This document shows positions 1 to 20,888 of a DNA stretch of 64,000 bases, piece by piece. Source of the DNA: Halorubrum sp. GN11_10-6_MGM. GTDB lineage: Archaea > Halobacteriota > Halobacteria > Halobacteriales > Haloferacaceae. A program made the position numbers and the translations under genes. The stretch lies in the NCBI RefSeq assembly GCF_005435165.1, contig NZ_SGUC01000004.1, positions 1 through 64,000 on the forward strand, in the 5' to 3' direction. A model generated the notes under the pieces. The model did no database searches. It saw nothing but the letters and a program-made list of their open reading frames with translations, and had not been told where the DNA came from. Positions within the stretch are counted from its first letter, which is position 1. The number at the start of each line of letters is the position of its first letter.

Positions 1-230
1 GCACGGCACCGCACAGCGCCTCACACCTCCCCAGCCTCGTCGGTGGTCCTCCGCCTCACACCTCCCCAGCCTCGTCGGTGGTCCTCCGCCTCACACCTCC
101 CCAGCCTCGTCGGTGGTCCTCCGCCTCACACCTCCCCAGCCTCGTCGGTGGTCCTCCGCTTCGCTCCGGACCACCGACTCCCTCGCGCGTGCTGCTCGGC
201 CGCAAGGCGGCCTCGCAGGCGCGCGCCACC
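1..230 (-). ncRNA. Candidate structured RNA element, copy A (runs off left edge)
   Basis: Read leftward from a TATA box at 239-246, the element has conserved GGTGGCGCG at 230-222, a small hairpin (GGCCG/CGGCC), the linker CACGCGCGAGGGAGTC, then a perfect 11-bp hairpin (arms 168-178 and 144-154) with a GGAGCGAAGCG loop, and the tail GAGGCTGGGGAGGTGTGAGG. All blocks recur in the same order at 20544-20671, where both hairpins have different stem sequence but still pair. The predicted transcription start, about 26 bases from the TATA centre, falls near 217. No protein frame is conserved between copies. I do not recognise a named RNA family. A non-coding mobile repeat is the main alternative. Confidence 0.5.
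19..158. repeat. Four 35-bp tandem repeats
   Basis: Four identical units start at 19, 54, 89 and 124. On the minus strand each unit carries the 3' arm of the large hairpin (GGACCACCGAC) followed by the conserved tail of candidate RNA copy A. The duplication therefore multiplies the arm-plus-tail block and not the whole element. Copy B at 20.6 kb has a single arm and tail. The small open frames here are by-products of the repeat. Confidence 0.95.
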
Positions 231-238
231 GACAAGTC

Positions 239-246
239 ATTTATAA
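239..246 (-). promoter_or_regulatory. TATA box of candidate RNA copy A
   Basis: TTATAAAT on the minus strand lies exactly 8 bases before GGTGGCGCG. Copy B has the same octamer with the same 8-base spacing, although the spacer bases differ, which argues for a kept promoter. Confidence 0.55.
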
Positions 247-20509: not shown

Positions 20510-20543
20510 GACCGCCGAACCGGACGGGTAGCTGCCCGACTAT

Positions 20544-20551
20544 TTATAAAT
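20544..20551 (+). promoter_or_regulatory. TATA box of candidate RNA copy B
   Basis: TTATAAAT lies 8 bases before GGTGGCGCG, as in copy A. It sits about 35 bases after the stop codon of the enolase-like gene, and the next annotated gene ahead (engB) is on the other strand, so this promoter has no protein gene to serve. Confidence 0.55.
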
Positions 20552-20559
20552 CGATCCGC

Positions 20560-20690
20560 GGTGGCGCGTGCCTGCGAGCGGTCGCCCACGGCGACCGCGA
20601 GACAGCACGCGCGAGGGAGTCAGTCGCCGGAGCGAAGCGACGGCGACTGACGAGGCTGGGGAGGTGTGAGGCTGCGGTTGCGGTGCGGGG
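20560..20690 (+). ncRNA. Candidate structured RNA element, copy B
   Basis: Order of blocks: GGTGGCGCG (20560-20568); outer inverted repeat GCGCGTGC/GCACGCGC (20564-20571, 20605-20612); inner hairpin of 9 bp with a CAC loop (20578-20598); linker CACGCGCGAGGGAGTC; second hairpin with 11-bp arms 20619-20629 and 20641-20651 and a GAGCGAAGCGA loop; tail GAGGCTGGGGAGGTGTGAGG (20652-20671). The stems differ from copy A at many positions but still pair. The start expected from the TATA box is near 20574, so the outer repeat may lie partly outside the RNA. Function and family are unknown. Confidence 0.5.
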
Positions 20691-20888
20691 GGGGAATCGA
20701 AGGGGCAGCCGCGAGGGCGAAGACGCGCGACGTAAGGACCGCAGGAGCGAACGCAGTGAGCGACGAGGACCGCAGCGAGCGCATCGAGTCCTCGCGGCTG
20801 GGGCTTCGGTGGTCGTGTTCTCGACAGCAACCGTGTCGTAACGACCGACTGAGACTTCGGTGGTCTCGTCTCGAACCGACTCAACCAC
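20691..20888. other. Structured spacer between RNA element B and engB
   Basis: There is no gene. It holds further inverted repeats, for example CGAGGAC (20764-20770) with GTCCTCG (20788-20794), and CGGCTGGGGCTTCGGTGGTC, which is loosely like the element tail. It may be a decayed partial copy of the element or its 3' end. Confidence 0.4.

Follow-up and report, generated by a model that had tools for sequence, protein, structure and literature searches.

Structured intergenic elements in an order of haloarchaea: a conserved fold with hairpins replaced at fixed sites in Halorubrum

Background

The REP/BIME, ERIC and BOX sequences of bacteria are intergenic repeats found in many dispersed copies which form hairpins. 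They are modular, few of them lie in divergent promoter regions and their sequence is largely kept. The element described here is also dispersed, intergenic, hairpin-forming, modular and scarce in divergent regions, but its stem sequences change completely; what persists is pairing, site and orientation, with a preference for G.U pairs. Among haloarchaeal sequences it may be compared with PATEs and SMRs, which are also non-coding, short and palindromic, with no target duplication (PMC3119063). PATEs show strain-specific insertion, and the palindromes near their ends resemble those of IS605-type transposons (PMC3119063), whereas the sites of our element are conserved between species. In comparison with MITEs a target-site duplication is missing, and the one sequence shared by both element ends is the palindromic TTATAA.

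A conserved fold and covariation are features shared with the structured RNA families of Rfam. However, a covariance search of Rfam gave no match at the gathering threshold, in agreement with the earlier note on this DNA, which knew of no named family; below the threshold there was a single match at chance level (17.5 bits, E 0.72, for a gathering score of 55). The intergenic small RNAs of Haloferax volcanii and Halobacterium salinarum are another parallel, since they are haloarchaeal, intergenic and, as may be the case here, TATA-driven. In contrast, no match to our model was found in H. salinarum DSM 3754 or Haloferax sulfurifontis, in a genome search without its own positive control.

Structure of the element

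We have analysed a window of 64,000 nucleotides from Halorubrum sp. GN11_10-6_MGM. It contains two copies, A and B, and all the letters which the earlier note quoted for them are present. A core covariance model gives 154.9 bits for B and 87.5 for A, with at most 13 bits for unrelated sequence in the window: their resemblance is not due to chance. The features are as follows.

20543–20551, plus strand: copy B, box TTTATAAAT, a mark of the 5' end found only in Halorubrum (letters checked)
8 nt after the box, plus strand: copy B, gap, followed by GGTGGCGCG at 20560–20568
20558–20571, plus strand: copy B, conserved 5' block and P1 5' arm (GCGGTGGCGCGTGC), from alignments; its partner is 20605–20612
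20579–20597, plus strand: copy B, inner hairpin of P1, CGGTCGCC-CAC-GGCGACCG, from covariation
20605–20621, plus strand: copy B, P1 3' arm and linker GCACGCGCGAGGGAGTC, near-invariant alignment columns
20619–20651, plus strand: copy B, exchangeable hairpin P2, with compensatory changes at all modelled P2 pairs
20619–20629 and 20641–20651, plus strand: copy B, P2 arms GTCAGTCGCCG and CGGCGACTGAC
20652–20671, plus strand: copy B, conserved tail GAGGCTGGGGAGGTGTGAGG, with GGGG in 99–100% of copies
20672–20693, plus strand: copy B, variable G-rich spacer of GCGGT type, from the alignment
20694–20809, plus strand: copy B, P3, GAATCGAAGGGG-CAGCCGCGAGG ... CCTCGCGGCTG-GGGCTTCGG, where two pairs covary with no mismatch
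within 20694–20809, plus strand: copy B, P3 motif GACGTAAGGACCGCAG / GAGGACCGCAGCGAG
20811–20819, plus strand: copy B, conserved 3' block of GGTGTTC type, from alignments
102–246, minus strand: copy A, box, P1, P2 and tail, recognised by the core model
239–246, minus strand: copy A, box TTATAAAT
222–230, minus strand: copy A, GGTGGCGCG
168–178 and 144–154, minus strand: copy A, P2 arms
124–143, minus strand: copy A, tail
17–159, minus strand: copy A, exact tandem repeat at the contig edge, 4.1 copies of a 35-bp unit made of the P2 3' arm and tail

The P3 of copy A is not visible because the tandem repeat follows the tail and the contig begins at base 1; this repeat may be genuine or an effect of assembly. 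Copy B had been described as ending at 20690. The conserved P3 extends to about 20809, however, and a block of GGNGGTGTTC type comes after it.

An alignment of 30 copies with their flanks gives an element length of about 250–290 bp, with three stem domains and invariant linkers containing GGGG. A box of TTTATAAAT type lies about 14 nt upstream of GCGGTGGCGCGTGCC. P1 is formed by GCGCGTGC/GCACGCGC and an inner helix, with a tandem GA/GA loop and a terminal hairpin. P2 lies between GAGGGAGTC and GAGGCTGGGGAGGYGTGAGG, after which comes a GCGG-rich spacer. The base of P3 is GACTC(A/G)AAG-GGG-CAG...CTG-GGG-CTT(T/C)GG and its inner motif GACGYAAGCACCGCAG / GAGGAGCGCAGCGAG. At the 3' end we find GGNGGTGTTCG and then a second TTATAA, 31 (or 23–28) nt beyond CTTYGG. 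Non-canonical internal loops (tandem GA, GGG/GGG, A.A) are conserved. At least four GGG tracts are present in 99–100% of copies; support for G-quadruplex folding is weak, as a quadruplex appears in the predicted minimum-energy fold of 7 of 30 copies. A coding repeat is ruled out: hairpins do not come in multiples of three nucleotides, their lengths being spread over all three modulo-3 classes.

Some loci have additional repeats. Two types of double-hairpin unit, about 45–65 bp long (for example CCGGCGC..GCGCCGGCTGCCAGAGAATC..GATTCTCGCTG), are found inside P3 or P2 (L005, L029, L087 and L070, L071, L076, L311); they are possibly separate small mobile units. On the 3' side of the element in L027 there is a tandem array whose 69-nt units contain a TATTTATAA box together with a short segment similar to P3 (GCGACTGGGGCTTCGG); single units of this type come after many copies.

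Number of copies and distribution

The earlier note took this for a two-copy element, which is refuted: a DNA search finds it at no fewer than 40 places in the window's own genome and the core covariance model R1 (155 positions) at 124 or more. It is present in every genome of the same genus that was searched. Three near-complete Halorubrum genomes have at least 150, 144 and at least 150 copies, eight further genomes have 17 to 131, and most Halorubrum chromosomes examined carry more than 100, up to about 200. The relatives that R1 detects in other genera have the same architecture with different stems, and are without the TTATAA box. R2, a second covariance model based on several genera, detects the element in 227 of the 392 genomes from the order, representing 53 of 95 genera; in a phylum-wide sample R2 had no listed match in the sampled genomes outside the order.

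Over a hundred dispersed intergenic copies which form hairpins are what one expects of a REP- or SINE-like repeat, which a structure-recognising enzyme would have spread in the past and which would now be immobile, its fold kept uniform by gene conversion or homing between existing copies, with little function for the host. The distribution among replicons speaks against such a repeat. A search of plasmids gave three weak records, phages and viral contigs gave no match, and in the multi-contig genomes among the eight the listed matches fall on one large contig each, with one exception (G113). This apparent restriction would instead suit an element acting as DNA, through extruded hairpins and its G-rich strand, in chromosome organisation, pairing or recombination.

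One contig (G140:C1) has 26 listed copies on the plus and 5 on the minus strand along its whole length, unlike other genomes. Polarity with respect to the replication strand was ruled out: orientations are mixed in the match lists of most genomes. In the G000 assembly about 20 contig ends lie in a copy or a few hundred bases from one (C116:1, C149:1, C41:5 and the ends of C120 and C155, among others), so the element is probably a main cause of its assembly breaks.

Conservation of the fold

With a MAFFT alignment as input the fold predicted by RNAalifold was poor, since the stems of different alleles misalign; pairs were therefore named by hand and refined with the covariance model. Alignments of this kind are fitted to the structure and lean toward standard pairs, G.U included, and for this reason the shuffle and slide controls matter. 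A stretch of 800 kb from a second species (G126) gave 63 matches, in which 96.3% of stem cells pair, so that the pairing-breaking changes which the earlier note set as a refutation are not seen across many copies. Both sides have changed at 22 of 30 pairs; compensated cells are 180, against 39.5 in shuffles, and fall to 5–18 when the partner is slid by 1–3 columns. When several genera are compared, compensatory changes occur at 28 of the 30 core pairs, with 273 compensated cells against 76.5 in shuffles and 34–46 when slid. Two pairs of P3 were counted by pattern, independently of the fitted alignment. The first is C-G in 77 copies and G-C in 19; the second is A-T in 77, G-C in 46 and G-T in 2. 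Neither has a broken cell, which counts against a REP- or SINE-like repeat of little function.

Mismatches in the stems also point to one strand. On the G-rich strand G.T mismatches number 58 and A.C mismatches 22 (p 7e-5); in G126 they are 28 and 6 (p 2e-4). A DNA cruciform should prefer neither, and the excess of G.U over A.C supports an RNA made from the G-rich strand. Compensatory changes and a pairing preference on one strand are both features of structured RNA families. The G-rich-strand fold is thus shown to be under strong constraint. Selection on the fold, proposed at first for RNA or extruded DNA, is borne out by the covariation and the P3 pairs, and is best read as acting on RNA.

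The GGG tracts of nearly all copies, the free orientation and the signs of gene conversion (see below) would agree with an element acting as DNA. The G.U excess, which extruded DNA would not favour, the conserved non-canonical loops and the small number of predicted quadruplexes are against it, and we regard it as improbable.

Genomic sites and neighbours

The site of copy B was followed by scanning for the EngB-like protein, which identified it in about 40 Halorubrum genomes. The element is found downstream of engB in about 20 Halorubrum species, always in identical orientation; many other engB loci have a different neighbour at that position. Between the window genome and G126, 17 of 19 orthologous intergenic regions retain the element, 16 of these 17 in the same orientation; the other has two elements, one each way. 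Mobility of the PATE kind should leave empty as well as occupied sites in close relatives, which is not what this comparison between species shows. Such stable occupation also argues against a REP- or SINE-like repeat. The lack of a target-site duplication does so too: flanks of the same copy are identical at 7.4 of 21 positions and those of different copies at 7.3, although a duplication equal to the box is still conceivable. The engB intergenic region of L102 has an insertion with two ORFs, similar to TnpA and TnpB of IS200/IS605, beside the element.

Neighbouring genes were taken from our own codon-bias calls, not from curated annotation. Both neighbours were called for 148 copies. Tandem regions contain 88 of these, convergent regions 43 and divergent ones 17, although the stretch of G126 examined has 143 regions of each of the last two kinds. 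A scarcity in divergent, promoter-containing regions is also expected of REP- or SINE-like repeats. Copy B is flanked by what we take to be genes for a GatE-like protein and an EngB-like GTPase, and other copies by ORFs presumably similar to RadB, PhoU and cobalamin genes (names from outside Pfam are our attribution). A pathway-specific riboswitch is ruled out, as the flanking genes are unrelated and have no common pathway.

The element might act in cis on the upstream gene, as its 3' UTR, as a terminator or in processing. Copy B is downstream of a co-oriented gene, convergent regions are enriched and several orthologues start 5–25 nt past the stop codon, all in line with this possibility. In tandem regions, however, antisense copies are as frequent as sense ones (49 and 39); the antisense excess in the first genome examined (36 against 20) is not repeated in the second. 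The free orientation makes it unlikely that the element is part of a neighbour's mRNA, and for the same reason a sense 3' UTR element was rejected. There is no poly-T run within the element and, as noted, the flanking genes have no common pathway. We consider a cis-acting role quite improbable.

Replacement of hairpins

Sequence identity is 77.5% between copies at orthologous sites and 77.0% between non-orthologous copies. The P2 hairpin is different at all 16 comparable orthologous sites. Among 170 copies there are 114 alleles of P2; twelve exact alleles are common to both species and cover 23 of 97 and 28 of 57 copies. Alleles of P1 and P2, and of P2 and P3, are unlinked within a genome (p 0.2–0.7). 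It is apparent that hairpins are replaced wholesale, independently of one another, at fixed sites. Frequent ectopic gene conversion of single hairpins, with the invariant linkers as anchors, would explain this most simply. Such conversion would also account for the differences between A and B: the two-sided changes reported for them do keep pairing, but are mainly exchanges of whole alleles from a common pool rather than stepwise compensation. A common hairpin pool and unlinked modules also fit a REP- or SINE-like repeat.

The TTATAA box

TTATAA is found within 35 nt upstream of 39 of 105 copies in the window's own genome and of 34 of 54 copies in G126, where 0.008 is expected per 35 nt. It is also present downstream, at +28 or +31, in 38 of 53 copies of G126. 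TTATAA is very rare in the 800 kb of this genome, with 186 occurrences, of which about 39% flank the element. The box is a genuine component of the Halorubrum form.

The earlier note gave the element its own promoter. The upstream box is indeed far above background and is present with co-oriented (23 of 53) and opposed (16 of 52) neighbours. On the other hand, its exact form is missing upstream of 66 of the 105 own copies, it was not found in copies from other genera, and it is absent in orthologous copies which start right after the upstream stop codon (L097–L102). No BRE-like bases precede the box. A start about 30 nt past it would land in or just beyond the 5' arm of P1, trimming P1. A role as promoter is thus uncertain. 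Boxes at both ends would also be natural in a REP- or SINE-like repeat, which on all the evidence we find doubtful.

Interpretation

We are highly confident that these sequences form an order-wide haloarchaeal family of structured elements of about 250–290 bp, with fixed intergenic sites in Halorubrum, a constrained fold and wholesale replacement of hairpins. As to mechanism, each copy may be a small non-coding RNA locus. Its G-rich strand would be transcribed, in Halorubrum probably with the help of the TTATAA box; the RNA would fold into P1-P2-P3, and a protein or complex would recognise it by its fold and its invariant GGGG linkers, whatever the sequence of the stems. Free orientation with respect to neighbours implies that the element would act as an RNA unit of its own. 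This mechanism, drawn from sequence comparison, is tentative, at best evenly balanced. Over a hundred copies of a trans-acting RNA would be unusual, which counts against it; conversion from a few functional copies could maintain the fold in copies which are themselves inactive. The family and the RNA-locus mechanism taken together are our best explanation, as likely to be right as wrong. The wider picture of RNA loci throughout haloarchaea, at fixed sites, with interchangeable hairpin cassettes from a common pool, where selection keeps fold and position but not sequence, is plausible, a little short of an even chance.

We know of no system which combines fixed sites, a kept fold and interchangeable pooled hairpins. 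Our literature search covered open-access papers in PubMed Central and gave no description of the element: within that literature and Rfam the family is new. The best-studied haloarchaeal genera may be without it. The lack of a match in the two genomes of model genera may explain why RNA-seq on those genera missed it. If our reading is true, haloarchaeal genome annotation has overlooked an abundant RNA or RNA-like element: by extrapolation G126 would have about 215 copies of about 270 bp, that is about 58 kb or about 2% of its chromosome. It would also provide a naturally occurring case of sequence turnover at constant position and fold, in which gene conversion in polyploid archaea and selection on structure only would become directly measurable.
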